Positions 29,301-62,768 of a DNA stretch of 64,000 nt are shown here, one piece after another. Within the stretch, counting starts at the first letter, position 1. Each line of letters starts with the position of its first letter. Under the pieces are notes generated by a model. It did not search any database. It worked only from the letters and a program-made list of their open reading frames with translations, and had not been told where the DNA came from. The position numbers were made by a program, and so were the translations under genes. The stretch is from Bolinopsis microptera (Eukaryota; Ctenophora; Tentaculata; Lobata; Bolinopsidae), in contig NC_087075.1 of NCBI RefSeq assembly GCF_026151205.1, positions 6,466,858 through 6,530,857 of the forward strand. The letters are read 5' to 3'.

Positions 29301-31503
29301 GCGATAGGAATTGCAGCTTCAGGTGTAATTGTTGCTGCTGCTTTGGAGGCTGCATCGACCTCAGATATTGAAATCGAAGTTGAAACACCAGCTGTCGAAG
29401 TAGAAACACCTGTCGTCGAAATCGAAGCACCTGCTGTTGAAGTAGAGATTGAAACACCAGCTGTCGAAATAGAAACACCAGCTGTTGAAATCGAAACACC
29501 AGCTGTTGAAATTGAAACACCTGCTTTTGAAGTCAAAACACCAGTTGTTGAAATCGAAACACCAGTTGTTGAAATCGAAACACCAGCTGTTGAAGTTGAA
29601 GCACCTGCTGTTGAGGTAGAGATTGAAACACCAGCTGTCGAAATAGAAACACCAGCTGTTGAAATCGAAACACCAGCTGTTGAAATTGAAACACCTGCTT
29701 TTGAAGTCGAAACACCAGTTGTTGAAATCGAAACACCAGTTGTTGAAATCAAAACACCAGCTGTTGAAGTTGAAGCACCTGCTGTTGAGGTAGAGATTGA
29801 AACACCAGCTGTCGAAATAGAAACACCAGCTGTCGAAATCGAAACACCAGCTGTTGAAATCGAAGCACCAGCAGTCGAATTAGAGGTTGAAGCACCAGTT
29901 GTTGAAATCGAAACACCAGCTGTTGAAATCGAAGCACCAGCAGTCGACTTAGAGGTTGAAGCACCAGTGGTTGAATTAGAGGTCGAAACACCTGCTTTCG
30001 AAGTGGAAACACCAGCGTTTGAAATTGAAACACCAGCTTTTGAAATTGAAACACCAGAATTGACGTCTTATCCTGCAGCTGCTACTGATATTGTTGTGGA
30101 CACTCCAGAAGCAGTTATAGAACTGCCAGATATGGAAGTGGAGGTTGAAACGCCGGAAGTCAGCTTAGAGATTAAAACACCAGTTGTTGAAATCGAAACA
30201 CCAGCTGTTGAAATTGAAACACCAGCTGTTAAAATTGAGACACCAACACTCGTCGTGGACACTCCAGAAGCAGTTATAGAACTGCCAGAAATCGAGCCAG
30301 AAGTCGAACTTGAGGTACCGGAAGTCGAAGTTAAAGTCGCAGCAGATGTCGACGTTCCAGAGGTTGAGATCCCTGTTGCTGCAGCGGTTAATGTCACAAC
30401 CGAAGTTGAAGTTCCTTCAGCTTCAGATGTTAGTTTATCAGGAGGAGAAGGCGATGTAGAATCTTTACCTCCAATCGATGTTACTTTCGCCCTTGAAGGT
30501 GAATACAAATCAGACGGCGAGATGGTTATCCCGGCAATCAAAAATGATCCTATATATAGTGTGTCAACTAAACAGAGGAAATTATCTGTGAGCAGTTCCG
30601 GAGGATCCAGTTCCAAAAAGAGAGTTTCTGTAGCGGCAAGTTCAGGTACCGGCACTGGTAAGTCTATGAAGTCAATAGGAAGCAGCTTCATATCCGGTGG
30701 TGACGAAATCAGCTCCCTGGCAGATGTAAGGATCAGTCACTACTTCCCCTCTATTGATTCTAGATTGGTACTACTCTTGGCGAATATGGATTCTACAAGC
30801 CAAGATTTCGAAACTTCGAAAGAGCAATTTAGAAAGTTCATTGCTAAGAGCGATATCGACTACAGGTGATGATGTTTTTCTTGTTCTTTAGATCTGATTT
30901 TAAGAATTAGTGTTAATAAATTTGACTGATCAAATATTGATTCATTCATTAAACATTTGAATTTGCATCAGATGCACATTTTTACCTGGAATATATTATT
31001 TGCATCACTTAATTTTACATTTATGTTCCAGGTCTGTGAGTTTCCTGAAATGTTGTCAGCTAATGCGCGTGTCTCTTACTGCTGCCAATTTTAAGATTAT
31101 TGGAGCCGGCGAGCACGTTATGTTCGACGACTTACCTTATAAGCTAAAACGAGGCATCTCCAAACTTACCTTGAAAAAGAAGAAGTCAAGCAAGAAAATA
31201 GAAACTATAGATCCTCTCCTGGCTCAGCTTTCAGCAAAAAGTGCCAGCTTGAAAAAAGCAAATACTGCTGATCAACCTCTGTCTAAAAAGCAGATGCAAC
31301 GTCAGAAAGAATTGGGTAACGCCGCCATCAACCTTTACACAGAAGTGATCCAATGTTACCAGAACTACAAAACCATGATGCAGACTGCACAGAGCTGGGA
31401 AGGTGCAAAGTTGGAGCCCAGGTATGGAGACAGTATGGATTATATGCAGGAGGAGGTCATGATGGCTACAATGATTCTCACCGGACAGTGCTCACCGGAT
31501 TAG
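5303..31503 (+). CDS. CH-CH actin-binding protein with giant acidic repeat tail (14 exons)
   Basis: Exons by my reading: 5303-5374, 6545-6679, 6880-6946, 7485-7567, 9395-9504, 9696-9733, 18348-18476, 18620-18718, 18868-19082, 20207-20343, 26954-27045, 27369-27485, 27661-30865, 31032-31503. All phases join and give 1656 aa. Residues 9-119 are a CH1 domain (WLNIQKRSYTNWINE at the start, LILGLMWQLVQ at the end). Residues 160-262 are a CH2 domain (NFKSDWKDGEALCALVD, MSMYLSCF). Both are closest in style to filamin/alpha-actinin actin-binding heads. Residues 263-361 are Lys/Glu-rich and end in a short putative coiled coil. About 440-1400 is the V-E-x-E-T-P-A repeat, then a Ser-rich basic stretch, then a conserved C-terminus. 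The start is the first ATG in the CH1 exon; non-coding exons may lie upstream. Function is inferred: an actin-bound extended acidic linker. Introns hold a nested lipase gene and many minisatellites. That head and tail belong to one gene rests on intron phase only. Confidence 0.72.
5386..5467. repeat. 9-bp tandem repeat in intron 1
   Basis: About nine copies of atatttgag, drifting to catatttga at the 3' end, starting just after the donor of the first coding exon. It explains the Leu-Arg-Tyr runs of the overlapping ORF; the real exon ends at 5374. Confidence 0.85.
7132..7289. repeat. E-box-containing minisatellite
   Basis: About nine copies of ctacccacgtg, grouped in a higher-order unit that also contains tgtcgagatcacaagtagtg. 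Each short unit carries one CACGTG. It lies in the third intron of the CH gene. Confidence 0.8.
8034..8291. repeat. 8-bp (tttgatag)n satellite
   Basis: About 30 copies of tttgatag with a few one-base variants. Since three units make 24 nt, the minus strand reads as an open 8-residue periodic peptide (S-N-Y-Q-T-I-K-L). That ORF is a by-product of the repeat. The array sits in the CH gene intron 7568-9394, which also holds a C tract of about 22 bases near 8453-8474 and an (ag)n tract near 8871-8894. Confidence 0.9.
9975..17829 (-). CDS. Acid lipase (lysosomal/gastric type), 7 exons, nested in an intron
   Basis: Exons on the minus strand: 17829-17604, 16539-16436, 12297-12160, 11970-11734, 11331-11216, 10993-10779, 10165-9975. 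Phases join exactly to give 408 aa, close to the usual length of this family of triacylglycerol/cholesteryl-ester hydrolases. Residues 1-18 are a signal peptide, so the enzyme enters the secretory route. Exon 1 carries the N-terminal lipase segment with TKDGYILQIFR. Exon 2 has VVFLQHGL (oxyanion region). Exon 4 has the nucleophile elbow GHSQG. Exon 6 has the catalytic Asp in GGNDWLG. Exon 7 has the catalytic His in NHDDYLLGMDAP. The whole gene lies inside the CH gene intron 9734-18347. The conserved G-Y-D-V-W motif expected at the exon 2/3 junction is missing: exon 3 starts at an AG inside a transposon end. The copy may therefore be damaged or use a transposon-derived splice site. Confidence 0.85.
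10490..10815. repeat. Triplicated lipase exon end plus cacgtg-rich 17-bp repeats
   Basis: The 3' end of lipase exon 6 with its splice donor (real copy about 10764-10815) recurs about 10487-10540 and 10611-10670 with a few base changes. Between the copies are arrays of a 17-bp unit, ataataagagtcacgtg. Only the copy joined to the rest of exon 6 can encode the Asp-Trp-Leu-Gly segment in a full exon. Confidence 0.8.
12625..12815. repeat. Concentric hairpin cluster
   Basis: An outer inverted repeat (tataacacacataaccccggc near 12629-12650 against gtgccggtgttatgtgttat near 12792-12812) encloses a 13-bp-arm hairpin centred at 12685 (aatttttcccgcg) and another at 12739-12777 with arms aaaataacccc and an inner cgtgct/agcacg stem. 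This looks like a foldback element or subterminal repeat block. Confidence 0.65.
13610..14365 (+). CDS. Internally deleted FLYWCH/MULE-type transposase
   Basis: A single-exon ORF of 251 aa. Residues 1-45 look like the start of a FLYWCH zinc finger (H-N-V-L-Y-D-G-H-L-Y, then Y-W-K-C..C-K-S-R). The usual second half with the His-x-His ligands is missing. The sequence then jumps to the MULE transposase core: a V-D-Y-E-I-A-I-R-N-A-V segment with an Asp expected to be catalytic, then G-C-W-F-H-F-K-Q-S-L-W, and a C-terminal N-I-A-E-G-W-N-S-G-F segment. Compared with FLYWCH-MULE proteins the middle (rest of the finger and first transposase block) seems lost, so it is probably inactive or a non-autonomous derivative. 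Its codon use is more GC-rich than nearby sequence, as expected of a recent arrival. The 5' leader shares the inverted sequence cccggaggggtttataa with 12815-12833. Confidence 0.7.
   Translation: MSSSSIEFIPGRKKGSHNVLYDGHLYHLNRKREDKTYWKCNKCKSRLILVLNELDSYGPFYPQSVLVDYEIAIRNAVSNVWPGTTLRGCWFHFKQSLWRHLQSEGLAADYYAWRLLKPSLPAEMSAFARYFESTWIGTTSTPPLFRHDSWNHHEAAQMLLPRSSNIAEGWNSGFASLVNCHNPSIWKFLECIKREQALTDVKITNILTRKAFKRAAKWEKFDLEMQRMVDDYDNFGDVTEFLKAVGSKILG
15484..15640. repeat. Short gttcgac-type repeats
   Basis: Several copies of (c)tgtagttcgacacg and its complement cgaactagagtg in direct and inverted orientation. Significance unclear. It lies in the second lipase intron. Confidence 0.4.
16088..16214. 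mobile_element. 127-bp MITE with perfect 21-bp inverted ends
   Basis: 16088-16108 is the exact reverse complement of 16194-16214 (ends begin ttaccttacaagacatattt). The core is built of ccgaaaatttcgg-like and ggcggt/accgcc inverted motifs, so the whole can fold into one long hairpin. No coding capacity. It lies in lipase intron 2, close to the acceptor-distal end of exon 2. Confidence 0.75.
21490..21885. repeat. 199-bp tandem duplication
   Basis: Two near-identical copies of about 199 bp, both starting aataacgataaaactct and containing cagctagagaacgctccaac. They differ at only a few bases, so the duplication is recent. No coding potential seen. It lies in the CH gene intron between exons 10 and 11. 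Confidence 0.85.
22939..23545. mobile_element. Nested CAGTGGCGTAACG MITEs
   Basis: A MITE at 23058-23344 has inverted ends cagtggcgtaacg and cgttacgccactg and is flanked on both sides by the 8-bp duplication attcggcg (23050-23057 and 23345-23352). Around it is a related, disrupted copy: a cagtggtgtaacgttgcc end at about 22939, and a second version of the interior (tctctaaaattgaacaaatt ...) at 23353-23520 ending in gccactg at 23543. C tracts near 22970-22995 and 23505-23527 belong to the repeats. The 8-bp duplication fits hAT- or P-type transposases; I cannot decide between them. Confidence 0.8.
23733..23787. repeat. (cacgtgac)n tandem E-boxes
   Basis: Four to five direct copies of the octamer cacgtgac after two copies of ctaacaccacgtga. 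Each unit is a perfect CACGTG E-box. It lies in the CH gene intron between exons 10 and 11. Confidence 0.8.
25250..25311. promoter_or_regulatory. Alternating CRE and E-box cluster
   Basis: Perfect TGACGTCA sites at 25271-25278 and 25293-25300, with a half-type ttacgtca before them, alternate with CACGTG at 25262-25267, 25284-25289 and 25306-25311. The 22-bp spacing equals two helical turns. Such sites bind CREB/ATF and bHLH factors in animals. Whether they act here is not known; they could simply be a minisatellite. They lie about 1.6 kb upstream of exon 11. Confidence 0.5.
26004..26033. promoter_or_regulatory. Second CRE/E-box cluster
   Basis: TGACGTCA at 26004-26011 and 26026-26033 flank CACGTG at 26017-26022, again with 22-bp spacing. 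It is embedded in a repeat that duplicates ccgcggttcagtta and agcagagtgtagttcagtg (about 25960-26080). Confidence 0.5.
26280..26625. repeat. 10-bp (cctcacrtca)n minisatellite
   Basis: About 34 copies of cctcacatca / cctcacgtca with higher-order patterning of the two variants. It explains the Thr/Ser/His repeat ORF over it, which is not a gene. Confidence 0.9.
27661..30865 (+). CDS. Exon 13 of the CH gene: acidic V-E-x-E-T-P-A repeat
   Basis: A 3205-nt exon between a clean acceptor (tgtttcag) and donor (ag/gtgatg), phase 1 in and 2 out. It reads as short units of alternating hydrophobic and Glu residues separated by T-P-A or A-P-A, of 7 aa (VEIETPA) or 9 aa (VELEVETPA). The alternation suggests short beta-strand-like segments broken by Pro, as in the central repeats of AHNAK/periaxin, but here strongly acidic. 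Two Ala/Gly/Ile-rich hydrophobic inserts interrupt it (28818-28893 and 29281-29359). The tail turns Ser/Lys-rich (KQRKLSV, KKRVSV) and ends in a conserved segment, STSQDFETSKEQFRKFI, shared with the second copy. Confidence 0.85.
31032..31503 (+). CDS. Terminal exon of the CH gene: conserved C-terminal domain
   Basis: It encodes 156 residues to the TAG stop. The first part (FLKCCQLMRVSLTAANFKI...) and a Lys-rich stretch are followed by a segment from QRQKELGNAAINLYTEVIQ to the terminal QCSPD that is identical at protein level in the second copy at 45600-46095. It looks mostly helical with conserved Cys, Trp and Tyr. I do not recognise the family. Strong conservation next to a freely drifting repeat suggests a binding domain. 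Confidence 0.85.
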
Positions 31504-39141: not shown

Positions 39142-42100
39142 ATGGGGCAAAGTAACAGTGCAGACGTCAGTGCGCCGTCGCCAATAGTTGGAGACATTCC
39201 TGATGATGGTTCGTTAATTTTCCATAGATGGGATCATCAATTAAGTCATCCCGACATGAAATAGGTTCACAAATCACATGTTTACTTACCAAGTATAATG
39301 TGCAGACTTAAGAGTCTAGATATATATCATAAGTCACAATTTAACCGAAACATTATATTTTCAGAGCGTGATTCTGTAGACCTAAGCAACGATGAGATAG
39401 AACAAGGGATTTTGGAGGCGTCTTTGCCATTGCCAGACCTTGATGACACGATCCAAGCTCCTGAAACAGAGACTCCGACAGGTACGTATTATTAATCGGG
39501 TGGGAACTGCTTTTATTGCCTGAAGGATGTTCCGGGACCGGAATTAAGACCGGGAATATAATCGGGACTGATATTTTTGAGTTACCAGTAATTGATCGGG
39601 GTTCAGCTAAAATTTGATACAAACATTAGCTTGATTTCAATTTTGCATGAAATGATTTGAATGCATAACATTTCAGCTGATGTGTCAGATATCCACAAGG
39701 AACAACTCCAGACAACCGAAGAGAATACCACTGAAGTAATCGAGAAGGAAACACCAGTCATGGAAATTGAAGCACCAGCTGTCGAAGTGGAAACACCAAA
39801 TGTAGAAGTGAAAAAAACAGCTGTAATTGAAGTTAAAACACCAGCTGTCGAACTCGAAACACCAGCTGTCGAACTCGAAACACCAGCTGTCGAACTCGAA
39901 ACACCAGCTGTTGAAATCGAAACACCATCTGTTGAAATCGAAACACCATCTGTTGAAATCGAAACACCAGCTGTTGAAATCGAAGCACCAGCTGTTGAAC
40001 TCGAAGCACCAGCTGTTGAACTCGAAGCACCAGCTGTTGAAATCGAAGCACCAGCTGTCGAACTCGAAGCACCAGCTGTTGAAATCGAAGCACCAGCTGT
40101 CGTACTCGAAGCACCAGCTGTCAAACTCGAAGCACCAGCTGTTGAAATCGAAGCACCAGCTGTCGAACTCGAAGCACCAGCTGTCGAACTCGAAGCACCA
40201 GCCGTCGAACTCGAAGCACCAGCTGTCGAACTCGAAGCACCAGTTCAAGTTGAAACACCAGCATTCGAATTAGAGGTTGAAACACCAGCTTTTGAAGTTG
40301 AGATACCTGCTCTTGAAGTCGAAAGACCAGTTGATGAAATAGAAACGCCAGCTGTTGAAGTTGAAACACCAGCCGTCGAATTAGAGGTTGAAAAACCAGC
40401 TTTTGAAATAGAAACACCAGCTGTTGAAATAGAGGTTGAAGCACCAGTTGTCGAATTAGAGGTTGAAACACCAGCCGTTGAAATCGAAACACCATCCGTT
40501 GAAATAGAAACACCAGCTGTTGAAATCGAAACAGCAGCTGTCGAAATCGAAGCACCGGCAACTGTTGAAATTGAAACACCAGCTGTCAACGTAGAAACAC
40601 CAGCTGTTGAAATTGAAGCACCAACTATTGAAGTTGAAACAGCAGCACTCAAATTAGAGATTGAAGCACCAGCTGTCGAAATCGAAACACCAGCTGTTGA
40701 AATCGAAGCACCAGCAACTGTTGAAGTTAAAACATCAGCTGTTGAAATCGATACACCATCCATTGAAATAGAAACACCAGCTGTCGAACTCGAAGCACCA
40801 GCAACTGTCGAAGTTGAAACTCCAGCTGTTGAAGTAGACGTTAAAACTCCGGTATTCAGCGTGGAGGTAGAAACACTAGCTGTCAACGTAGAAACACCAG
40901 CTGTTGAAATCGAAGCACCAATTATTGAAATCGAAGCACCAAATGTAGAAGTGAAAATACCTGCTCTTGAAGTAAACATTGAAACACCAGCTGTCGAATT
41001 AGAGGTTGAAACACCAGCTTTTGAAGTTGAGACACCTGCTCTTGAAGTCGAAAGACCAGTTGTTGAAATAGAAACGCCAGCTGTTGAAGTTGTAACAACA
41101 GCAGTCGAAGTAGAAGTTGAAGCACCAGTTGTTGAAATCGAAACAACATCCGTTAAAATAGAAACACCAGCTGTCGAAATCGAAACACCTGCTGTCGAAT
41201 TAGAGGTTGAAACACCTGCTCTTGAAGTGGAAACATCGGTTGTAGAAGTTGAAACACCAGCCGTCGAATTAGAGGTTGAAACACCAGCTTTAGAAATCGT
41301 TGCTCCAGCTATCGAAGTGGAGACACCAGCCGTCGAATTAGAGGTTGAAACACCTGCTCTTGAAGTGGAAACATCAGCTGTCGAAGTTAAAACACCTGCT
41401 GTCGAATTAGAGGTTGATACACCAGCTTTCGAAATCGAAACACCAGTTCTCGAAGTGGAAACACCAGCCGTCGAATTAGAGGTTGAAACACCAGCTTTCG
41501 AAATCGTTGCTCCAGCTATCGAAGTGGAGACACCAGCCGTCGAATTAGAGGTTGAAACACCAGCTTTCGAAATCGTTGCTCCAGCTATCGAAGTGGAGAC
41601 ACCAGCCGTCGAATTAGAGGTTGAAACACCTGCTCTTGAAGTGGAAACATCGGTTGTCAAAGTTGAAACACCAGCCGTCGAATTAGAGGTTGAAACACCA
41701 GCTTTCGAAATCGTTGCTCCAGCTATCGAAGTGGAGACACCAGCCGTCGAATTAGAGGTTGAAACACCTGCTCTTGAAGTGGAAACATCGGTTGTCGAAG
41801 TTGAAACACCTGCTGTCAAATTAGAGGTTGAAACACCAGCTTTCGAAATCGCTGCTCCAGCTATCGAAGTGGAGACACCAGCCGTCGAATTAGATGTTGA
41901 AACACCTGCTCTTAAAGTGGAAACATCAACTGTCGAAGTTGAAACACCTGCTGTCGAATTAGAGGTTGAAACACCAGCTTTCGAAATCGTTTCTCCAGCT
42001 ATCGAAGTGGAGACACCAGCCGTCAAATTAGATGTTGAAACACCTGCTCTTGAAGTGGAAACATCGGCTGTCGAAGTTGAAACACCTGCTATCGAATTAG

Positions 42101-45100
42101 AGGTTGAAACACCAGCTTTCGAAATCGTTGCTTCAGCTATCGAAGTGGAGACACCAGCCGTCGAATTAGAGGTTGAAACACCTGCTCTTGAAGTGGAAAC
42201 ATCATCTGTCAAAGTTGAAACACCTGCTGTCAAATCAGAGGTTGAAACACCAGCTTTCAAAATCGAAACACCAGCAATTCCCGAAGTAGAAACACCAGCC
42301 GTCGAATTAGAGGTTGAAACACCTGCTCTTGAAGTGGAAACATCAGCTGTCGAAGTGGAGACACCAGCCGTCGAATTAGAGGTTGAAACACCTGCTCTTG
42401 AAGTGGAAACATCATCTGTCAAAGTTGAAACACCTGCTGTCAAATTAGAGGTTGAAACACCAGCTTTCAAAATCGAAACACCAGTTATTCTCGAAGTGGA
42501 AACACCAGCCGTCGAATTAGAGGTTGAAACTCCAGTTTTCGAAATCGCTGCTCCAGCTATCGAAGTGAAGACACCAGCCGTCGAATTAGAGGTTGAAACA
42601 CCTGCTTTTGAAATGGAAACATCAGCTGTCGAAGTTGAAACACCTGCTGTCGAATTAGAGGTTGAAACACCAGCTTTCGAAATCGTTTCTCCAGCTATCG
42701 AAGTGGAGACACCAGCCGTCAAATTAGATGTTGAAACACCTGCTCTTGAAGTGGAAACATCGGCTGTCGAAGTTGAAACACCTGCTATCGAATTAGAGGT
42801 TGAAACACCAGCTTTCGAAATCGTTGCTCCAGCTATCGAAGTGGAGACACCAGCCGTCGAATTAGAGGTTGAAACACCTGCTCTTGAAGTGGAAACATCA
42901 TCTGTCAAAGTTGAAACACCTGCTGTCAAATCAGAGGTTGAAACACCAGCTTTCAAAATCGAAACACCAGCAATTCCCGAAGTAGAAACACCAGCCGTCG
43001 AATTAGAGGTTGAAACACCTGCTCTTGAAGTGGAAACATCAGCTGTCGAAGTGGAGACACCAGCCGTCGAATTAGAGGTTGAAACACCTGCTCTTGAAGT
43101 GGAAACATCATCTGTCAAAGTTGAAACACCTGCTGTCAAATTAGAGGTTGAAACACCAGCTTTCAAAATCGAAACACCAGTTATTCTCGAAGTGGAAACA
43201 CCAGCCGTCGAATTAGAGGTTGAAACTCCAGTTTTCGAAATCGCTGCTCCAGCTATCGAAGTGAAGACACCAGCCGTCGAATTAGAGGTTGAAACACCTG
43301 CTCTTGAAGTGGAAACATCGGTTGTCGAAGTTGAAACACCTGCTGTCGAATTAGAGGTTAAAACACCCGCTCTTGAAGTGGAAACATCGGTTGTCGAAGT
43401 TGAAACACCTGCTGTCGAATCACTATTAGAGGTTGAAACACCAGCTTTCGAAATCGTTGCTCCAGCTATCGAAGTGGAGACACCAGCCGTCGAGTTAGAT
43501 GTTGAAACACCTGCTCTTGAAGTGGAAACATCAGCTGTCGAAGTTGAAACACCTGCTGTCGAATTAGAGGTTGGAACACCTGCTTTTGAAATCGTTGTTC
43601 CAGCTATCGAATTTGAAATACCAGCTGTCGAAGTTGAAATCGAAAGACCAGCGGCTGAAGTTTTAACACCAGCAATCGAATTAGTGGTGGAAACACCAAC
43701 TGTTGATATAGCAACACCAGCTGTTGAAGTTGAGGTTGAAACACCAACTGTTGATATAACAACACCAGCTGTTGAAGTTGAGGTTGAAACACCAACTGTT
43801 GATATAACAAGACCAGCTGTTGAAGTTGAGGTTGAAGCACCAACTGTTGATATAGCAACACCAGCTGTTGAAGTTGAGGTTGAAATACCAACTGTTGATA
43901 TAACAAAACCAGCTGAGGCTGACGTACCAGAAGTTGAAGTTAATGTCACAGCAGAAGTGCCGGAAGTTGAGGTAAAAGTTAAATCACCTGCTGTCGAAAT
44001 AGAGACACCAGCCCTGGAAATTGAAAAACCAGCTGTTCAAATCGAGGATGGAACGTCAGCTGTTGAAATCAAAACATCAATCGAAACAGCAGCCATCAAA
44101 TTTGAATCACCAGCAGTCGAAATGGAAGCACTAAAAAGAAAAGTTGAAATCGAAACACCAGCTGCTGAAGTTTTAACACCAGCAATCGAATTAGTGGTGG
44201 AAACACCAACTGTTGATATAACAACACCGGCTGTTGAAGTTGAGGTTGAAATACCGGCAGTCACAAACGCAACACCGACAGTCGACGAACCCTCTGTTGA
44301 GATTGAACTGTCAGGATTAACGTCTTATCTTGAAGCAGGTACTGATCTCGCTGCAGACACTCCAAAAGCAGTTATAGAACTGCCAGAGATTGAACCAGAT
44401 GATAAAATGCCAGCACTCGAAGTCAAAGCCCCAAATGTTGAATTCCTTGAATCAGTAATTGTGGATACTGAAGAAAAAACGCCAAGTCGCCGTCTCTTTA
44501 AACGATTTTCACGAGCTGCAAAAGTTAAAAGTAAAACCACAGCTGTTGAAGTTGAAACACCTGCTGTCGAACTCGAAATACCAGCTGTCGAAGTAGAAAC
44601 ACCAGTTGTCGAAGTTGAAACACCTGCTGTCGAACTCGAAATACCAGCTGTCGAAGTAGAAACACCAGTTGTTGAAATCAAAACACCAGTTGTTAAAATC
44701 GAAGCACCAGCTGTTGAAGTTGAAACACCTGCTGTCGAACTCGAAATACGGATACCAGCTGTCGAAGTAGAATACACAGTTGTCGAAGTAGACACACCTG
44801 CTGTTGAAGTCAAAACACCAGCTTTTGAAATCGAAGCACCAGCTTTTGAAATCGAAGCTCCAGGTATTGAAATCGAAGCACCAGCTGTCGAAGTAGAAAC
44901 ATCCGCTTTTGAAATCGAAGCTACAGGTGTTGAAATTGAAGCACCAGCTGTCGAAGTAGAAACATCCGCTGTTGAAATCCAAACACCAGCTGTTGAAATC
45001 GAAACACCAGCTTTTGAAGTTGAAACACTTGCCCTAGAACTCAAAGTGGAAACACCAGCTGTCAAAGTAGAAACACCAGTTGTTGAAATCAAAACACCAG

Positions 45101-46095
45101 TTGTTGAAATCGAAGCACCAGCTGTTGAAGTTGTGACGCCATCAGTCGAATTAGAGGTTGAAACACTTGCTGACGAAGTTGAAGTTTCATCAATCGACGT
45201 GGCAGCTTCAATCAAAAAATCAGCTGCTCGTTCTTCAGTATTGCTACATCAAACTAATATGGATTCTATCGCTAAAGATTATGAAGCGGCCAAAGAGGAG
45301 TTTAGAAAATTTATCACTAAGAGTGACATCAACTACAGGTGATGAATATAATTATCTACAGTTATTATTATACTCCTCTATGCGTGTTATTGTTAAAAAC
45401 ATTTGTTAAACTTTAAGGAAATAATTGCAATTGCCACTGCCCTAAAATTATATGTTATTTAACTACCAATTTTGTAATGCTGATTCGATCATTTATACAA
45501 TTCAACAATATAGAATCAATTTTTATTTGATTCTTAGTTTGGAATTGTCTATATTTTGTTTAACCGATGTTAATTCAGTTAATAAATACTTCATTTCAGG
45601 TCCGTGACTTTTTTGAAATGTTGCCAGCTTATGCGGGCATCTCTTATTGCTGCCCAGTTCAAAATAACTGGGGCCGGTGAAATCCCTTTGTTCGAAGATG
45701 TCATACCTAACAAAAAGTTAAAAAAAGGTGTATCTAAACTTACATCAGTCTTGAGATTGAAGAAAAAGAAGTCTAGCAAGAAAAACGGAAACATAGATCT
45801 TGTTACTTCTCAACTTCCTGAGGGTTCGGGTTTGAAAAAATATAATTGCAGTACAGTTGCAGAACAGCCTCTGTCCAAAAAACAAATTCAACGTCAGAAA
45901 GAATTGGGTAACGCTGCCATCAACCTTTACACGGAAGTGATCCAATGTTACCAGAACTACAAAACCATGATGCAGACTGCACAGAGCTGGGAAGGTGCAA
46001 AGTTGGAGCCCAGGTACGGAGACAGTATGGATTATATGCAGGAGGAGGTCATGATGGCTACAATGATTCTCACCGGCCAGTGCTCGCCGGATTAG
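39142..46095 (+). CDS. Second acidic-repeat gene or alternative 3' module
   Basis: Exons 39365-39481, 39677-45338 and 45600-46095 are collinear with exons 12-14 of the CH gene, with identical phases. The repeat exon is 5662 nt, far longer than in the first copy, and is dominated by VELEVETPA and FEIVAPAIEVETPA units. A small exon at 39142-39208 starts with ATG, encodes M-G-Q-S-N-S-A-D and ends in phase 1, which joins 39365 in frame. Used as first exon it gives 2113 aa with a possible N-myristoylation signal. Alternatively 38360-38457 precedes 39365, and splicing from CH gene exon 10 would give 2485 aa. One basic island (RRLFKRFSRAAK, 44488-44535) interrupts the acidic rod. No CH domain lies directly upstream. 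Function unknown; an extended acidic scaffold tethered to membrane or actin is inferred. AATAAA follows at 46295. Confidence 0.75.
41941..43300 (+). repeat. 696-bp tandem duplication inside the repeat exon
   Basis: 41941-42604 recurs at 42637-43300 with very few differences (offset 696 bp, 232 codons, frame kept). It includes the rare landmarks FKIETPAIPEVETPA and FKIETPVILEVETPA, so it is not just the background periodicity. Confidence 0.85.
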
Positions 46096-48357: not shown

Positions 48358-51300
48358 TTAGTTGAGTGTTGATCCGCATGTCAACTGTATTTCATCTTTA
48401 CCATCAATATACGAGGCCCGTCGTATGGGAGAAGGAATCGGCTGAAATGATGATCATTAATATAAGTGCCAAACATAATAGGAGTATTATTATTTTAAAA
48501 AGGAGTATTATTATTTTAAAAAGGAGGGAAAAATAATTAAGAATGGTCAATTGAGAAGAACGAAAAATTAAAAAAGGAGCTCAAGCGAAACAAAAAATAA
48601 CAAAAGAAATAAGAAGAAGAACCTCACCTCAATTCCAGCGATTATGCTAAGTTTGCGTTGAATTCTCTGGACGGGGACGGGTATGTTATAATTACTGTCT
48701 GTCTTAGGAGTGGCCTTGTTCTTCAGCCGGAAAAAGAGCATCTTCGCTATCTCTTTTTTGTAGGTTGCACTCCGCGAGATATATATGAGCGGGTTCCATG
48801 CACAGTTCGACTGAGGTGAGAGTTATTTAACAAGGATTTTTACGAAGAAATGTACAAAGAATTGGAGAATCTCATAGAGGTTAATAAATACCATGACCCC
48901 AAAAATATGTATTATCCATAAAATGTAAGGTTATTTACAACTAAAATTTGATTTATTAACTCACAAGGGCAGTAATAACAATAAGGATGTGCGTGTAGAG
49001 GTACCAAGTCTGGTCGTTATCTTTAGACGAGCTCCGCACTAGGGTGTATATTATCTTACAGATATAGGGTGTCCAGCACAGTAGGAAACACACGATTATC
49101 AGTCGCGCTGTCACGCTCGCATTCCGCATGCATTTGGGCGTACCTGAGGATTTTATTCGTTGTAAATAATTATATATATTGTGTATATATATATATATTT
49201 TTTAGGATGGTGTGTGACTGTAACGGGTCCGCATGACTGCAAAAGTCAGTACGTTTAACGCCTCGAGGAAGATCGCAGGATTCCTAGTCTACGCTACTCT
49301 TTTCATCATGGCTACGACACTCAATTTTGGGACATGGAATGTTTGCGGTCTATCGACCACATACAGGCAACACTTCGTTGCAGAGGACATTGACAGATAT
49401 AACTTAGACATTTTAGCACTTCAGGAGACCAAGACACGTGAATACTTGGAAACAACACTCCCCGGACATCATCGATTGTTTTTGTTTGATCAGAGACACG
49501 ATAGACACGGTGGACTTGGGTTTATTGTTAACAAGCGTTTTTTGGAATGTATAGTATCTCATCATCAGATCAGTGACAGAGTTGTTTATATGGACTTTAA
49601 ATTAAGTGCTAAAAGGGTGGATCAACCACCTTGTCATATCAGAATTGTTAATTGTTACAGCCCTACGAATCCCAAATCAGTTCAGAATCCCCGATTAGCG
49701 ACCCAATTTTATGATGAGCTACTCGAGGCTATCAGTGTTCCTGCTAGATTTGAAGTATGGATGTTAGGTGACTTTAATGCCAAACTTGGCAAAAGAAGCC
49801 CTGTTGATGTAGAAAATGGTTTACAAGTGAATATTGGTAGACATGGTGTTGGGAGGAGGAATGAAAACGGTGAAAGGTTGCTACACTTTCTCACTGCTAA
49901 TGGCCTGTTTGCTGCCAACACTTCATTCTCCCATAGCAGCAGACACATTACCACACGGACTGGTTGGATTCGGGATCGAGCAACCAGGAAAAGTAAACCT
50001 TATTTCCAACAGATTGACTTCATACTCTGCAAGTCCAGAAGCAAGGCACTGCTAACTGATGCCAGGTCATATGCAGGTACAAAGCACCGCAGTGACCACA
50101 AACTTGTTGTTGCCAAGGCAGATTTTTCGCAGCGCTTCAATTTGTACAGGGAGAGCAGAGCATTTCAGAAGAGTTATAACACAACAACCTTGATTGGAAG
50201 CAAACAAGCTCAACAAGAATATCAGCAAGAACTTCATCAGATACTTGAGCAAACTGTATCAGATCCTGACTTTAGCTCCAACAACACGGAACAGCAATTT
50301 GATATGCTTTTTGGTGTAGTTAAAGAAGCTGCTGTTTCCACTGTGGGTTTTCGCGAGCCACAGCGAAAGAGGAATCATTCCTCTGACAGTCAAGTTGTTA
50401 GCATGTCTGAAGAAAGGAAACAACTTTTACAACAACTGAACAACAACGAATACAGAGACAGGACAGCTCTCAGAGCTAAAATCAACAGGCTCTCTAATGA
50501 CATTACTAAACGGTTGAAAACATTGAGAGTTGAGTTAGCAAACAGCCTAGCTGACTCTATAGCCACCATAGACGAAGGACGGAGAATGTTTGAAGCTGCT
50601 CGTCAACTATCAGGCAAACAGAAAATGGGTGCAGGCTCTGTGTCTGTTTTCAACACTGACAACCAACTGGTAGATAATGAACGAGACAAGGCTGAAATCA
50701 TTCGCCAGTACTTTGAAGAACACTACACTGGACCTGACAGTGAACCACCACTACAACCGTTCACAGGTAACCCTAGGCCCCTTCAAAACCCCATTACAGC
50801 GTTTGAAGTTGAGCTTGCGGCCAAGAAACTCAAGAACGGTAAAGCTGTTGGACCAGATGGGATCCCAAACGAGTTCCTCAAACACTCTCCTGAAATCTTT
50901 TATTCCACATTTGCACAACTTACTAATCGATCTTTTGAGCTCCATGAACATGTACCTTCTTTCACAGAGGGATACCTTACTCCGCTCCAAAAACCTGGAA
51001 AGCCACTAGGCCCCCCTAAGAGTTTGCGCCCACTTTGCCTACTTAACGGTACTAGAAAGATATTGTCCATGATAGTCTTAAAGCGCATCCAAAGGCAAGT
51101 ATCTCAGTACACTGGTCCTTGGCAGAATGCCTATAAACCTGGCCATAGTTGTGCAAATATCGTTTGGACCCAGCGAATACTAGTATCAGTTGTCAAGGAA
51201 AAACGCTGGTCTCTTCATAAGATGGGCATTGACATGTCCTCTGCTTTTGATACCATAAAGAGGTCGGTATTACTTGACGTTTTAGCTGATGCTGGTTGTA

Positions 51301-54300
51301 GTGAGGATGACATTCGACTGGTAAGGTATTTGCTCGCAAATACTAAACTGAAGATTAAAGTGAACTCAACAATATCGGGAGAGTTTATTGTCATGATTGG
51401 AGCTTTTCAAGGCGACAGTTTGTCTGGAAACTTGTTCACTCTATATCTGGCAGCAGCACTTTACCACCTGCGTGCTGTTATGTCCTATCTAAGACCTAAC
51501 CCTCCCATAGCTGAGAATCTGTTACCCCTCGAGTGGGAGTACGCAGATGATGTTGATTTTACTGATGAGGATAAAAGCAATTTGGAGTCTTTGTTGCCAA
51601 TATGTAAAGAGATATTGGAAGAGTGGAATCTTTTTGTCAATGAGTCAAAAGCCGAGTTCACCCATTTCTATCTGGCCGGCAAGAACGAGGTTGATAACAA
51701 AGGAGAAACACTCAGAGGTAGAGAACCTTGGAGGTCATCTATCTCTTTAGGCTCTAAGTTGTGTAGCATCGAAGATGTCAAGAGGCGATGTATACTTGCT
51801 AACATTGCTTTTCAGAACTACAAAAAAGTCTGGGAACAAGGTAGACGTATACCCTTGAAGATTCGACTCAAGATATATGAAGCACAAGTTGTTTCAATAC
51901 TGATGTATAATTGCAACAGTTGGGCAACATCTAAACAACTCCTTCAAAAACTTGATGTCTGCCACAGGAATCATCTCCGTACGATCATCGGCATGACCTA
52001 CCCTAATGTCATACGAAATGTGACTCTATACAAACGCTGCGAAGTTGTACCACTAAGTGAGCGTGTTGCTCGTGCACGGTGGAGAATGCTCGGTCACATC
52101 CTCCGCAGTGATAATAACTCACCTGCCCAGCTTGCCTTACATTTTGCTGTAGAGAGTCAGAGTTTGATGAGAGGTAGAGTCGGACGACACCAGTCAAACT
52201 TGTTAAAAACTATTTTGAACGATTTAAGTGATAGAAACTTTAGACTTGTAAATACAGACGATTTATACCATTTAAGATTTTTAGCGACAGATAGAAAAGC
52301 ATGGAGAGAGTTAAGCATGATTTAGTTTATTCTGTGTTATTTTTCTCTTGGTGACTTATCAGGTCATCAAGATGTTCTTTATGTTCTATTTTTGATTTGA
52401 ATAAAGTTATATAATAAATAATTATATAATAGTGTCACTTATTAGATTAGTTATAATTATAATAGTGTCACTAATTAGATTAGTTGTAATTATAACAGTT
52501 TCACTAGTGTCACAGTAATGATAAAAGTTCTTCAAATTTTATTAAATGACAAGGCTATGAACAATTAAATAATGACTCTTTTTAAATTTGTTTTGACGAG
52601 CAAAGACAATTTGATAATTAAATAGGTTAATCACTTAAAATCAATGTCAATATGATAGTATCCTAATAATAGTATCCTTCCCAGCAGCTGATTTACCTCT
52701 TGCTCGAGCCTTTTTACAGAACATTTTCTTCATTGCAGTTTTCAGGTCATTCACAACTTCATCTCTTTTGACTTTCACTGAAGTATTTAATATGTTATCA
52801 ACTTGAATTTTACAAGTTTCATTAAATTGCCTTCAAATTTAAAGGTCAAGGGATGTACCGCTTACAGTAAACTCAAGATATTATTAAGGATAAATAAATC
52901 ACGAGATTAGAGATGGCAATCCCTGTCAAACCCTATTTTCATGTCATCTTTCCATATAAATAACTAATAACTGCAGCTCCCCTGGCGAGTTTTGATCACG
53001 TGACATGACCAGTTAAGGAAGTTGGTCTAATTTCTCGTCAGGGCTAAGATTTTTGGGTGTGGGGTCAGAGTAGAGGGTTTTGATTAGACCCTCAGGGCCA
53101 TCTAGAGAACGTGTTTAAGTAAGTCACTTTAACAGTAGAGTGATTAATCATGATCCTGATGGCACATTGTAAATCGCCAACTTCAAGACTCCTGCGTATA
53201 TAACATGCCATGTTATACATGACAAGAATATTTTAAAACCATCTAAGTGCCAAGCAGCCCGCCAAAGTAATGAAGTACGTCAAATTAAAATCGGAACTTC
53301 TCGAGAAGATCATTGACAATGAGATGGCGCGCGAATGTTACATTATCTTTGACGTCAAAGTTTGATTGGAAACTTTGACGTCAAAGAAGATTTCGCTATA
53401 CACGAAATAGCCATGCAGTGAAACTCTCGAATGTGCTTTACCAAACAGATTTTAGAAATAATAACCCAGTTTGTATGAACTGTAGTGAATTGTACTATGT
53501 TTGACGCAAACTAAACCGAAATCTACGTCCCTCCAAGTTTATACTTCAAATTACCCATAAGTTATTACATTTTTGACATACCTGAGTTTAGTCTGGACAT
53601 TGAGTCGTTGCTGTGGAAAGAAGCATTGTTATTGCTGAGAATGGTGTTGTTTCTGTCGTTCGGTAACTGGGAGTTGGTCATGCACACGTTGCGTGTTGTT
53701 ACGTTCGCACCAATGCTCATGTGACTGAAATGGTTATAATAAAATAAATGGTAATATACAGTAATAAGTTGAATAAATTAAAGGACTGAACCAGGCAATT
53801 TGGTTAATCAAACAATAAAATACTTTGATTAGATTAAAATCGAACTTATATATATTACTGAGTCTAATCAAAAACAACCAGACATTTCCCAGACTAATAA
53901 TCAAGTGTCTTATCAGCAGAAAAACAATTAATGTTAGGTGTGCGGCAAATAATTAATTAACAACTAATTGGTTGGTTAGATGACTAATGAAAGTTACCTG
54001 GAAACTGACATGGTCTCCTCAATTACCGTATGCAGAACTAGATCTTTGTGACTGGCTGGAAACTGGACGTTGCCACCTACAAAGTAAACCCATTAGAAAA
54101 TCAGTGTAATTAGTGTAATTAGTGGGACCTAATGAGATTGAGATTTTGTGTATGCTAGTCCTAATAATAATACTCCTCGCGTCCTCTAGGGAGGCGTTTC
54201 TCTTGCATCTAATATCTTGCTACATTAAGTAAAATTGTGTATCCAGAAAGTATGATTATCTGAACAGAGCTTGAACCACAACCAGATTAATTACCTTTTT

Positions 54301-57904: not shown

Positions 57905-58292
57905 TACTCGAACTTTATTTACTGTATTACCTTAAATTATTATAGACGATCTTCTTTTATTTTCGTGAAATTGTAAACGGTTAAATTTTACTATTTTTAA
58001 ATGATTCAGTTTTGTTAATTTTATTTATTCATTTGTTCATTTATTCATTCTTGTATAGCCAAGACGAGTCCGTTAGTGTTCTCTCTGGTAATTTCATGTT
58101 TAATCCTGTTTAATCCTTTAATCCATCTCCCCGCCGTCTTGTACTTGTTATTGACAGCTTAGGGAAGTTGGCTCCAGCTTGTTTAGTGTTTATCTCTTTA
58201 TTGTGTGTTTATAGTTACACGTGTTAATAGCGTGCTTATTAACAATACTGGAGTTGTGTGAACTATAAAAATGTTTTACTAAAGAGCCAAAG

Positions 58293-58473
58293 AGTGAGTG
58301 TTGGCGCGCCCAGTGAAGAGTGAGTGTTGGCGCGCCCAGGGAAGAGTGAGTGTTGGCGCGCCCAGTGAAGAGTGAGTGTTGGCGCGCCCAGTGAAGAGTG
58401 AGTGTTGGCGTGCTCAGTGAAGAGTGAGTGTTGGCGTGCTCAGTGAAGAGTGAGTGTTGGCGTGCTCAGTGAA
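58293..58473. repeat. 26-bp minisatellite with GGCGCGCC
   Basis: Seven tandem copies of gagtgagtgttggcgcgccc followed by agtgaa. Four carry a GGCGCGCC palindrome; the last three have changed to ggcgtgctc, a CpG-to-TpG-type change. Confidence 0.9.
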
Positions 58474-59334
58474 GGCGTGGAAGATAAAATAGATATCGGA
58501 TCTATGTATTCTTTCAAAAGACTAGCAGAAGGTGAGAAGGAGCAACCCGGTTTGATTTTTCTGAACTATGCATCTTATACTGGTATAGTATTGTTATCTA
58601 TGTTTACCTATTAGTATTGCAACCTTTTTATCCGTGCTAGTTAATCAGGTTTAGGGTACCGGGCCATACTGTTATAAATATAATGGGCCGTTCCCCTAAT
58701 GCAGGTCTTGTTTACCCATATATATATCCCGGATATACCGTATCCGTGTAGAAAGGTTTTGCTGTATATTAAGACGCAATGTTTAATTTTATGAAGGAGT
58801 ATATTAAGACGCAATGAAACTACCGGACTACGATGTATGGGGACTTGCCACCCCATGGCAACATTAAAATATGTCGACTCTGTTACATCGTTTCCTGTTA
58901 ATATAAATCTGGTCGATATACATTGTTGTAAATTATATTGTTATATATTATTCTATTTGTTTTCCAAGTTAATATAAAACTCCGTTACAAATTGAGCTGG
59001 GATCTGGGACCTGGCAATACTGCTACTATTTTACTTATATTACCTACTTATCCGAATGTTTATCAGAATAGCTACAGGATAAATTGCAGCTTAGTATTAA
59101 CTTAAACTCGAGGTAACCTGACACAAATCCCAGACGAGATGTGACATTTGGGTGACATTAAGTTGTGCTCTGAAAACCTCGTGACCTGTCTCGGACAAGA
59201 ATTCAGCAACTGTTGAAGTTACTTCAAAATTTCCAGTACTGCTTATAATCACTATGTGATTATAAGACACTCGAGGTTGGAAATTTATCTAAAATGGCCC
59301 ACAGTACTTTTGAGTTTAACAACGCTTTGTTTAT

Positions 59335-62300
59335 GGACACGTTCATTGAAGTTTGAGGATATTGGTAAATATTAGTGACCCTACTGAATGGCACGATGAT
59401 GTAAAATGTGTCACACTATGAAACTATATAAACCCTCTAACCCTAAGATAATCGTTTCATCCTCTAGATAAACTTTGTCGCATAACGATATCTTTATCAG
59501 ACGATAAGATATCGCTTAAATGCGGCCGGCAGTGAGTTGTAAACTTTGTCACACTATAAAACCGTGACGGAGTTTATATGGACCCCTTGTTGCCGTGTTT
59601 GACCAAATTTTCGAATTTCCAATTCATAGAATAGCTGTATATGACTATTATCTACATATTTAGCGACTTTTTTCCTTAAATGGTAGCACCATGTAAACTC
59701 CGTCACACATTTAAGACATTTATATGAGGGATGTTTATGACATCCTGACAAGTAATGCCGAATAGTCTAGCATTATTTTGTGAGCTGAATGTGTTTGGAA
59801 TTGTTCACATATTTCATTGTTATCTGGCAAATACAAATACAGAAGGCAGAAATAGGTAAATTTAGTCACATAAATTTGTATGATATCTCAACATGTGTGA
59901 AATTGAGTAAATATTAGTATACCAACTTAAACACCCTATATTACGTACTATGGATCAATTAACAATATTTCAACCATACGCCGGTCATATAAATTATTAT
60001 ATGGCAGTGATATGTTAACATTGGATAAATTTCAACACCTGAACAGGGTAAAAATTTGTAAATTTCGTCACACAAAAAATATTATAACTTTATTTGCTCC
60101 GTGTTGGCAAAATAATTAATTTATCGACATAGTGATGGTGATAAAGTAACATTATATACTAATTGAGGTATGATTCTTCAAAATAGGGGCAAGAAATGTA
60201 AATTTCGTCACATCAGCCATTGCATTATTTAGATAGATTTTCTTTCATATCAACTGCCCTTATTATAGTTGGAATGGATTTATACAGGAAATATAGAAAC
60301 CCATGCCCATTTTTCATTACATTGAAATTATACTGTTGGGGCAGGAAAAGTAAATTTCGTCACATTTCGGTAAATTAGTGATATCAAACTCAGCATTGTT
60401 AAACTTGAGTTCTGATTTGCTGAAAAATAACCTACCAATAATTCCTGGAAGAATATTGCATTCTAATCGGGGTATGGTTCTTCAAAATAGGGTCAAGAAA
60501 TGTAAATTTCGTCACATACGTCATTGTAAAATTTAGATACATTTTCTTTGACATCAACAGTCCTAATTATAGTTTGAAATGATTAATTCAGAGATAAAGG
60601 AAATATAAAAACCCATGCCCATTTTTCATCACATTGAAATTATACTTTTGGGGCAGGATAAGTGAATTTCGTCACATTTCGGTAACTTAGTATAATTAAA
60701 CTCAGAATTGTCAAACTTGAGTTCTGATGATCTGCTGAATAATAACCTACTGATAATTCCTGGGGGAATATTGAATTCTAATCGGGGTATGGTTCTTCAA
60801 AATAGGGTTAAGAAATGTAAATTTTGTCACATACGTCATTGTAAAATTTAGATACACTTTCTTTCACATCAACAGTCCTAATTATAGTTTGAAATGATTA
60901 ATTCAGATATAAGGAAATATAGAAACCCATGCCCATTTATCATCACATTGAAATTATACTGTTGGGGCAGGAAAAGTGAATTTCGTCACATTTCGGTAAC
61001 TTAGTAAAATTAAACTCAGAATTGTTAAACTTGAGTTCTGATTTGCTGAATAATAACCTACTAATAATTCCTGGAAGAATATTGAATTCTAATCGAGGCA
61101 TGTTTCTTCAAAATAGGGTCAAGAAATGTAAATTTCGTCACATCAGCCATTGCATTAGTTAGATAGATTTTCTTTCATATCAACTGCCCTTATTATTATT
61201 GTGACAATTTTTACATCAACTGCCCTTAACTTGAATCAGCTCTATCCGTGCATCGTCCTTATATACAGTTTTCCCGCCTTCCAAACCAAAATCAGATATA
61301 AATGATTTCGGCAATTCACCCAAAATTTTAAATTCCATTATAATGTGACAGAATTTACATCATTTCCCAATAAGTGCATGTATTTGCTAACTTTTCAAAA
61401 CAACATATTTTAGGGCTATGATTGGTAGAAGAACCATCAAATAATGAGTTGAAAGGGTTTTGAGAACACCTCACAGTAGAAAAGAGGTATCGTATTCTGA
61501 GTGTGACAAAGTTTACGAAATATTGCCTTAAAACCGTTCGATCCCTGCCCTTTAGCCAAATGTTGTATCATAATTGTTAGAATGACCTAATCTACTGTAT
61601 TTTAAACCAAAAATGCTAATTGGGCAGCTATGGTTAACACAGTCACAAAAATGTGACATTTTTTACATTATAGTGCCTAAAAACAATAAATTGTATTTCT
61701 GAGCCGTGTATATGGAAGTATGGGTCACGTGGCTAATGTCCAGAACTTCTGAACACGCTATTTTTGTTGGTTTACCAATGTCCTTAAACTTCAACATGAA
61801 CGTGTCCATTTACGATTTCGTATCATTTTGTGACGATGTTTACAGCAACTGCCCTATACGTCAATCAACTGTATCCGTGTATCGTCCTCATATAGAGTTT
61901 TCCCGCCTTCCAAACCAAAATCAGATATAAATGATTTCGGAAATTCGCCCAGAATTTCAAATTCCATATAATGTGACAGAATTTACATCATTTCCCAATA
62001 GCCAAGTGCAGTGCATGTATTAGTTAACTTTTCAAAACAACATATTTTAGGGCTATGATTGGCAGAAGAACTATCAAATAATGAGTTGAAAGGGTTTTGA
62101 GGACACCTCACAGTAGAAAAGAGGTCTCATATTCTAAGTGTGACAAAGTTTACGAAATGTTGCCTTAAAGCCGTTCGATCACTGCCCTTTAGGCCTACAT
62201 TGTATCATAATTGTTAGATTGACCTAATCTACTATATTTTAGACCAAAAAATGCTAATTGGGCAGCTATGGTAAACAATGCCACAAAAATGTGACATTTT

Positions 62301-62486
62301 TTACATAATAGTGCCTAAAAGCAATACATTTAATTTTTGAGCAGTGTATATGGGAGTATGGGTCACGTGGCTAATGTTCAGAACTTATGAACACGCTAGA
62401 TTAATATATATTGAAATTAAACTACTATCGTCAAAAACGCTGTTTTAGAAATTTACCAATTTCCTCAAACTTCAATGAACGTGTCC
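59335..62486. mobile_element. 3.15-kb TIR element with phased 15-bp motifs
   Basis: The ends 59335-59370 and 62451-62486 are inverted copies matching at 35 of 36 positions; a third diverged end copy is internal (about 61768-61810). A 15-bp motif near GTAAATTTCGTCACA occurs about twenty times, roughly every 155 bp. It is in forward orientation from 59401 to 61142 and reversed from 61200 to 62304. The left arm consists of tandem units of about 310 bp, the right arm of two units of about 630 bp. No ORF of note. Transposon superfamily unknown. Confidence 0.75.
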
Positions 62487-62768
62487 TTATAAGTTTATAG
62501 AGTTGTAGATACTTGGGTTAGATCTTGAGTTAGGGTCAAGTTAGGGTTTGAGTGGCGGATTAAGGTCCATCCTATTACAAAAGAAAATCGCGATTATTTT
62601 GGCCAAAAATTGCGATACCGCGATTTTTACCGCGATTGATACCGCAAGACATGTAAAATTTTTCGCAAAAAATGGGGAAAATCGCGATTCTGTACATGTC
62701 GCGATTTCCTTTTGTCCCTGATCCTATTTGACAGTTCTGGGAGAGCAAAAGCTGTGAAGGTGCGAGGT

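Follow-up and report, generated by a model that had tools for sequence, protein, structure and literature searches.

Architecture of the element

The window, a 64,000-nt stretch of Bolinopsis microptera DNA, contains at positions 59335-62486 a complete A-type element of 3,152 bp. The element is a non-autonomous DNA transposon of the cut-and-paste kind, bounded by terminal inverted repeats, and encodes no protein, as seen from its inverted ends, the homologous copies that carry the same ends, and its longest open reading frame of 74 aa. The left terminal inverted repeat occupies the outermost 36 bp at 59335-59370 (+) and the right one the corresponding 36 bp at 62451-62486 (-). Comparison of the two ends gave 35 matches in 36 positions, the same count as in a preliminary description of this DNA, and as 39-mers the ends are inverted copies at 95%. 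The duplicated target site TTAT flanks the element on the left (59331-59334) and on the right (62487-62490). The preliminary description had proposed a TIR element bearing a repeated motif that flips orientation once, and the inverted repeats and 4-bp duplications support its identification as a transposon.

Copies in the genome

A genome-wide search with the 25-base end, allowing up to three mismatches, returned 513 + 524 = 1,037 matches, while the reversed-pattern control returned none; the family comprises several hundred copies. Forward and reverse neighbours within 15 kb among 100 exact ends listed were paired into 37 copies, one of them the window copy, and the other 36 were fetched. These 37 copies span 2,010 to 8,860 bp. 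All of them carry 13-25 copies of the repeated site described below, 4-16 per strand, mainly on the forward strand in the first part and mainly on the reverse strand in the second, with few reversed sites.

Two copy types were distinguished, the A-type of the window copy and a B-type, with flanks about 7.5% apart and different middles; B-type arms include 111-bp steps. Older relatives measure 934 bp (L041) and about 1.3 kb (L039) between their ends. The best 40 of 1,090 candidate 306-bp left ends are 99-100% identical to the window copy and, as the best-scoring ones, show that young copies exist rather than how old all copies are. The exact 24-base end did not occur in the viral and bacterial collections searched. 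One further locus (L047, G000:C6:1638500-1642400) carries three copies of a related end in the same direction, at distances of 343 and 3,318 bp; it lacks a reversed end and any site, and may represent local duplication of an end or a different family with the same end.

Target duplications, whose search the preliminary description had suggested as a check, were found as perfect 4-bp repeats beside 34 of the 37 copies read (exceptions L003, L019, and L036), the TTAT of the window copy being among them. The 34 perfect duplications consist of ATAT (21), TTAT (6), ATAA (3), and GTAT, ATAC, TTAA, and ACTT (one each). The preferred target is the palindromic T-WTAW-A: a T precedes the duplication at position -5 in 31 of 37 copies, an A follows it in 30 of 37, and most duplications read WTAW. 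When left flanks were compared with the right flanks of other copies as a control, the 4 bp matched in 506 of 1,332 comparisons (0.38), because the target itself is preferred.

A two-part site repeated along both arms

The twenty motif positions given in the preliminary description all match GTAAANTTNGTCACA with at most two mismatches, twelve on the forward strand (59401 to 61128) followed by eight on the reverse strand (61200 to 62290). The element contains 10, 18, and 22 sites at up to 0, 1, and 2 mismatches, respectively, and 500 dinucleotide-preserving shuffles reached maxima of 0, 1, and 2. The 22 sites comprise the twenty listed and two weak ones with two mismatches each, at 59468-59482 (+), between sites 1 and 2, and at 59598-59612 (-), reversed within the left arm. 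A looser pattern with three mismatches matched 54 times over the whole window, with 37 matches expected.

Alignment revealed that the motif is really a two-part site of about 26 bp, GG-N9-GTAAAnTTnGTCACA, reaching 11 bp upstream to a GG pair. The alignment of 20 sites includes the weak 59468 and omits 59401, where the upstream part is short. Among the aligned sites, G is present at -11 in 17 of 20 and at -10 in 19 of 20, A at -7 in 14 of 20, and, letter by letter, GTAAA is kept in 18-20 and GTCACA in 19-20. The conserved letters of GG, GTAAA, and GTCACA carry 1.2-2.6 bits, and columns further out within the printed range carry at most 0.60. The site therefore reads as three blocks, GG, GTAAA, and GTCACA, spaced 9-11 bp apart, roughly one helical turn. 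The 36-bp ends contain no full copy of it.

On the forward strand, site 1 lies at 59390-59415 (identified by its 15-mer, with the upstream part read from the sequence), and sites 2 to 5, identified by motif match and alignment as are all those that follow, lie at 59528-59553, 59682-59707, 59845-59870, and 60047-60072. The remaining forward sites could also be typed by their units, which alternate between type a (site 6, 60187-60212; site 8, 60491-60516; site 10, 60806-60831; and site 12, the last forward one, 61117-61142) and type b (site 7, 60339-60364; site 9, 60651-60676; and site 11, 60965-60990). On the reverse strand, site 13, the first reversed one, lies at 61200-61225, followed by sites 14 (61344-61369), 15 (61502-61527), 16 (61652-61677), 17 (61829-61854), 18 (61972-61997), 19 (62139-62164), and 20 (62290-62315). 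Sites 16 and 20 are each accompanied by a degenerate inverted partner with three mismatches, at 61633-61647 (+) and 62271-62285 (+), respectively.

Exact two-part sites number 794 + 725 = 1,519 in the genome, with 0 and 0 in the control. The 100 exact sites listed all come from C1; for 98 of them another site is no more than 5 kb away, and for 76 an exact family end is present within 10 kb. The remaining 24 form four clusters and two single sites. Judged from this distribution, the site looks like a mark of this transposon family and not a common host site. Twenty viral contig stretches each contain one isolated exact site, which we take as chance.

Arrangement and spacing

Most sites point inward from either end, and their sense reverses once inside the element; the few reversed ones are those at 59598, 61633, and 62271 in the window copy and their counterparts in other copies. 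Start-to-start spacing is 138-202 bp in the forward arm and 143-177 bp in the reverse arm. The mostly 140-165 bp steps reported earlier were recovered in 14 of the 18 within-arm steps. The flip measures 72 bp start to start (61128 to 61200) and falls 58% along the window copy. A few short steps (67, 71, and 72 bp), about half the usual length, are found around the weak site 59468 and across the flip.

The preliminary description had suggested that the flip might mark the centre of a foldback element, which did not hold: outside the 36-bp ends, neither arm is an inverted copy of the other. With the ends removed, minus-strand matches between the arms are limited to stretches of 17-32 bp, and each contains a site. 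A Foldback- or Galileo-type element, which needs long inverted arms, was rejected on these grounds.

Both arms are internally duplicated. The left arm contains a tandem array at 60159-61196 (+), with a period of 315 bp, two sites per period, 3.3 copies, and 88% matches; the 7 left-arm units of this array fall into two types. The right arm contains a four-site block of about 630 bp present in two copies (61199-62398; families D3, D4, D6, and D8), reducing its 8 units to four types; the other five units are single. The 20 units thus represent 11 types, between which no flank similarity was detected (177 pairs, mean z -0.04, maximum 3.29). Satellite DNA was rejected as a description of the element, since the units are not alike over their length and comprise 11 unrelated types among 20, local tandem blocks notwithstanding.

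The 11 distinct spacers have a mean of 157.3 bp (SD 17.6, CV 0.112), and none of 100,000 random placements was as regular, with or without a 60-bp floor. The regular spacing has two possible sources: it was itself selected, or duplication was so ancient that the spacers have worn in sequence while seldom changing in length.

Conservation of the sites across copies

To compare sites with spacers, we used 36 rows, the window copy and 35 of the 36 fetched copies, L023 having been dropped as a neighbour duplicate of L022. Variants were split by their carriers into singletons, regarded as private, and those present in at least 3 copies. If copies are dead on arrival, mutations that arise after insertion should strike sites and spacers alike; variants carried by at least 3 copies have mostly been passed on.

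Variants present in at least 3 copies number 5 in 315 site columns and 220 in 2,512 spacer columns, or 0.0159 and 0.0876 per column (ratio 0.18). Singletons number 43 in sites and 511 in spacers, or 0.1365 and 0.2034 per column (ratio 0.67). The contrast between private and shared variants (43, 5 versus 511, 220) gave p = 0.0027 by Fisher's test, with the reservation that shared variants track subfamilies and are only partly independent. With CpG columns left out (37, 2 versus 432, 181), the value was p = 0.00036. For interior sites alone, the ratios were 0.79 for singletons and 0.18 for shared variants (p = 0.0022), and for outer sites alone 0.40 and 0.18 (p = 0.69, with few counts). Placebo windows shaped like sites and drawn from the spacers had as few shared variants in 0 of 1000 draws.

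Polymorphic columns pointed the same way in larger samples. The odds ratio was 0.57 when the window copy was taken with the eight closest full-length ones (p = 0.063, not significant), 0.37 when it was taken with 14 others (p = 5e-6), and 0.50 with 29 others (p = 1e-5). Comparison of single copies with the window copy gave core/flank ratios of 0.21 for A-type copies, 0.22 for B-type copies, and 0.70 for four old loci. We do not build on this count, since the window copy served both to define the sites and as the partner in every comparison, which brings in its own flank mutations each time. The ratio of only 0.70 at the old loci and the non-significant result in the eight closest copies count against selection on the sites.

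Part of the site deficit may come from site calling or shared history, because private mutations are also rarer in sites (0.67); because sites were identified by resemblance to the motif, intact ones may have been preferred, although in the window copy the main ladder of the A-type copies lacks no step. Site changes are scarce among variants carried by several copies, interior sites included. The preliminary description had named, as the outcome that would speak against it, a motif conserved no more than the rest, and the comparison came out the other way.

Search for a transposase or an autonomous copy

No transposase or autonomous copy was found when protein families were compared with the 100 ends listed, which cover about the first third of the genome. 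The families placed against these ends were PF13359, PF05485, PF13843, PF12762, and PF10551. For contigs C1-C4 up to 9.14 Mb, 24 of 25 PF13359 matches were placed, together with 11 matches of PF05485, 5 of PF13843, 23 of PF12762, and 28 of PF10551; the nearest end to the remaining PF13359 match (C1:8317332) is 1.8 Mb away. Four family matches lie within 15 kb of a listed end: one falls inside a copy, and the other three lie outside elements, 8-11 kb from an end. The match inside a copy, L037, belongs to a different transposon nested there (L037:1651-6921, G000:C4), which has 1.47-kb inverted repeats (94%) and a DDE_Tnp_4 exon.

The five longest copies (L001-L005) were considered as autonomous candidates and set aside, as their long frames look, by eye, like reverse-transcriptase genes of non-LTR retrotransposons. 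L005 shares an insert with L006 at 99%. Ends with unusual inner sequence were found at 8 and 24 places. Seven of the eight, together with three further stretches (L038-L047), gave short old copies (L039 and L041), fragments, and copies whose second end did not fall within the stretch read. Three unpaired ends (L048-L050) showed no second end and no recognisable transposase in the 6.5 kb read.

A 927-aa open frame at L046:933-3713 (-) (G000:C12) has no Pfam or PDB match. It matches 53 genome stretches, some of them in open frames of 1,000-1,800 aa, and none of these long relatives was seen near a listed end. As it is multi-copy and its long relatives lie away from listed ends, we set it aside as a candidate transposase of the family and interpret it as a gene borne by a different repeat. 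The genome may still contain a rare autonomous copy outside the stretches read.

Comparison with known systems

Clusters of subterminal sites are well known in plant transposons, such as the TnpA sites of En/Spm and the AAACGG motifs of Ac, and known subterminal arrays of transposase-binding sites occupy the outer few hundred bp. The present family resembles these elements by analogy, in that a short motif is repeated inside the inverted ends, is directed relative to each end, and would be recognised in trans. It differs in that its 26-bp site recurs over the entire 3 kb in steps of about 150 bp, with interior sites kept. PiggyBac and Kolobok elements make a strict TTAA duplication, and both were rejected, as TTAA accounts for only 1 of 34 perfect duplications here.

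In the part of the literature on Sola2 drawn on here, these elements are described with AT-rich 4-bp target duplications that include ATAT, inverted ends of 12-21 bp, and the target AWWT, and those described encode Fanzor1 or a transposase (PMC3627910). A membership rule given elsewhere is terminal sequence alike at positions 1-11 (PMC4455052). The present family shares with Sola2, as far as these excerpts describe it, an AT-rich 4-bp target duplication and short inverted ends, whereas no transposase was seen in the family and its target is T-WTAW-A instead of AWWT. Sola2, going by the same excerpts, is the best target-duplication match among the groups compared; with no transposase found, we do not file the family there.

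To our knowledge, Helentrons and HINEs have no cut-and-paste TIR and no fixed-length duplication, and the TIR and 4-bp duplication seen here rule them out. The oyster element Cg_HINE/Pearl, of the Helentron type, is built of tandem monomers, some groups of which are alike only in two short segments according to the part of the report consulted (PMC7492417). The likeness lies in dispersed non-autonomous elements with repeat units of about 140-180 bp (PMC7492417, same part). The difference, on that partial account, lies in the unrelated spacers around one site, the TIRs, the 4-bp duplications, and the orientation flip found here. Galileo and Foldback elements also have internally repetitive arms, with structure and length varying between copies, but their long terminal repeats are inverted copies of each other, while the arms here share ends and site (PMC3573991). 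Nematode satellites with CENP-B-box-like motifs likewise conserve short motifs in otherwise dissimilar units, but they are satellite DNA, while a TIR and target duplication are present here (PMC3694981). Among titles and the beginnings of abstracts in the open-licence literature, we found no description of an element composed over its full length of a single site that alternates with unrelated spacers and reverses once.

Proposed role of the sites

We favour, as the probable reading, a non-autonomous transposon moved in trans, whose arms are arrays of putative sites for the transposase or a partner. The repeated site is probably bound by a protein that moves the element, either the transposase or an accessory DNA-binding protein, because variants that have spread to several copies rarely alter the sites. 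This agrees with the preliminary description, which had considered a protein-binding site for a transposase or chromatin factor. Each arm would in effect be one very long end. Many molecules loaded at steps of about 150 bp might favour pairing of the two arms, deprive other elements of transposase in short supply, or maintain open DNA. A single internal reversal would be expected where two such ends, each with its sites directed inward, adjoin and no gene separates them. A more elaborate scaffold version is tentative and somewhat improbable as a whole: the element would have turned into a scaffold consisting largely of protein-binding sites, a spacing close to nucleosome size or to the persistence length of DNA would itself be under selection, the arms would be coated over 3 kb by the transposase or a partner, site number (13-25) would tune the competition for transposase, and arrays of unrelated spacers would grow by recruiting new site-bearing units.

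The ladder might instead be bound by a host chromatin or replication protein that confers a favourable chromatin state, site retention then reflecting selection for that state. One site per 140-165 bp is near nucleosome scale, and the shared-variant ratio of 0.18 is the same for interior and outer sites (the outer ones not significant alone), as such a factor would have it. CENP-B binds its box in alpha-satellite units, and we take the family site to be different from the 17-bp CENP-B box. The conserved motifs in otherwise dissimilar satellites offer a precedent (PMC3694981). This reading is unlikely, however, given that 76 of the 100 exact sites listed lie within 10 kb of an exact family end and that spacing ranges over 138-202 bp, down to 111 bp in B-type arms. 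The case for nucleosome phasing is weak, because a 26-bp site every ~157 bp leaves ~131 bp, less than the 147-bp nucleosome core, and AA/TT/TA steps show no periodicity around 10 bp beyond that of shuffled sequence. Both the ordered orientation of the sites and their near-restriction to the family fit a transposase or accessory protein better than a host chromatin factor.

It is more doubtful still that the arms are passenger satellite, that is, old and slowly diverged tandem arrays whose motif survives from the ancestral monomer or acts as a recombination hot spot and plays no part in transposition. Both arms are truly tandem-duplicated (the 315-bp and ~630-bp blocks), site number differs between copies, and the even spacing could derive from an ancestral monomer, yet the 11 unit types retain no flank similarity while the site is intact, and variants carried by several copies avoid the site, which leaves this reading strained. 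Least probable, and improbable indeed, is that the sites serve a transcription factor as enhancer or promoter elements, aiding spread through transcribed or open insertion loci: many mobile elements carry such sites and the half-sites are of ordinary transcription-factor size, but there is no gene inside the element to express, and orientation follows the ends and reverses once in 37 copies, with few exceptions, an order that enhancers do not need.

Non-autonomous transposons are usually thought to need little beyond their ends. Here the interior sites, kept over most of the length in variants that several copies carry, make a role for internal repeats in a transposon directly testable, and the near-constant spacing with unrelated spacers provides a natural series with which to test whether spacing or the site alone matters. 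The comparison of shared and private variants inside and outside sites is usable for any young repeat family.

Other features of the window and genome

About 0.9 kb upstream of the element, at 58290-58474, lies a tandem array of 26-bp units (7.1 copies, 97% matches). Elsewhere in the window, positions 27600-30866 and 39661-45339 contain very long open frames (1,089 and 1,893 aa) that consist of repeats resembling VEIETPAVEVETP. A short frame lies after each (30961-31500 and 45586-46092); the two short frames are similar, and the first has no Pfam match. Together these are perhaps a tandem pair of repeat-protein genes. A 1,033-aa open frame at 49224-52322 has endonuclease and reverse transcriptase domains and is the frame of a non-LTR retrotransposon. 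A FLYWCH zinc finger lies at 13550-14362 together with a MULE transposase fragment just below the Pfam cut-off. In the genome, open frames of 723-796 aa with a THAP domain occur on several G000 contigs, three of them of equal length and score, and perhaps represent another recently active transposon family. TTAGGG runs were observed at one of the fetched loci.
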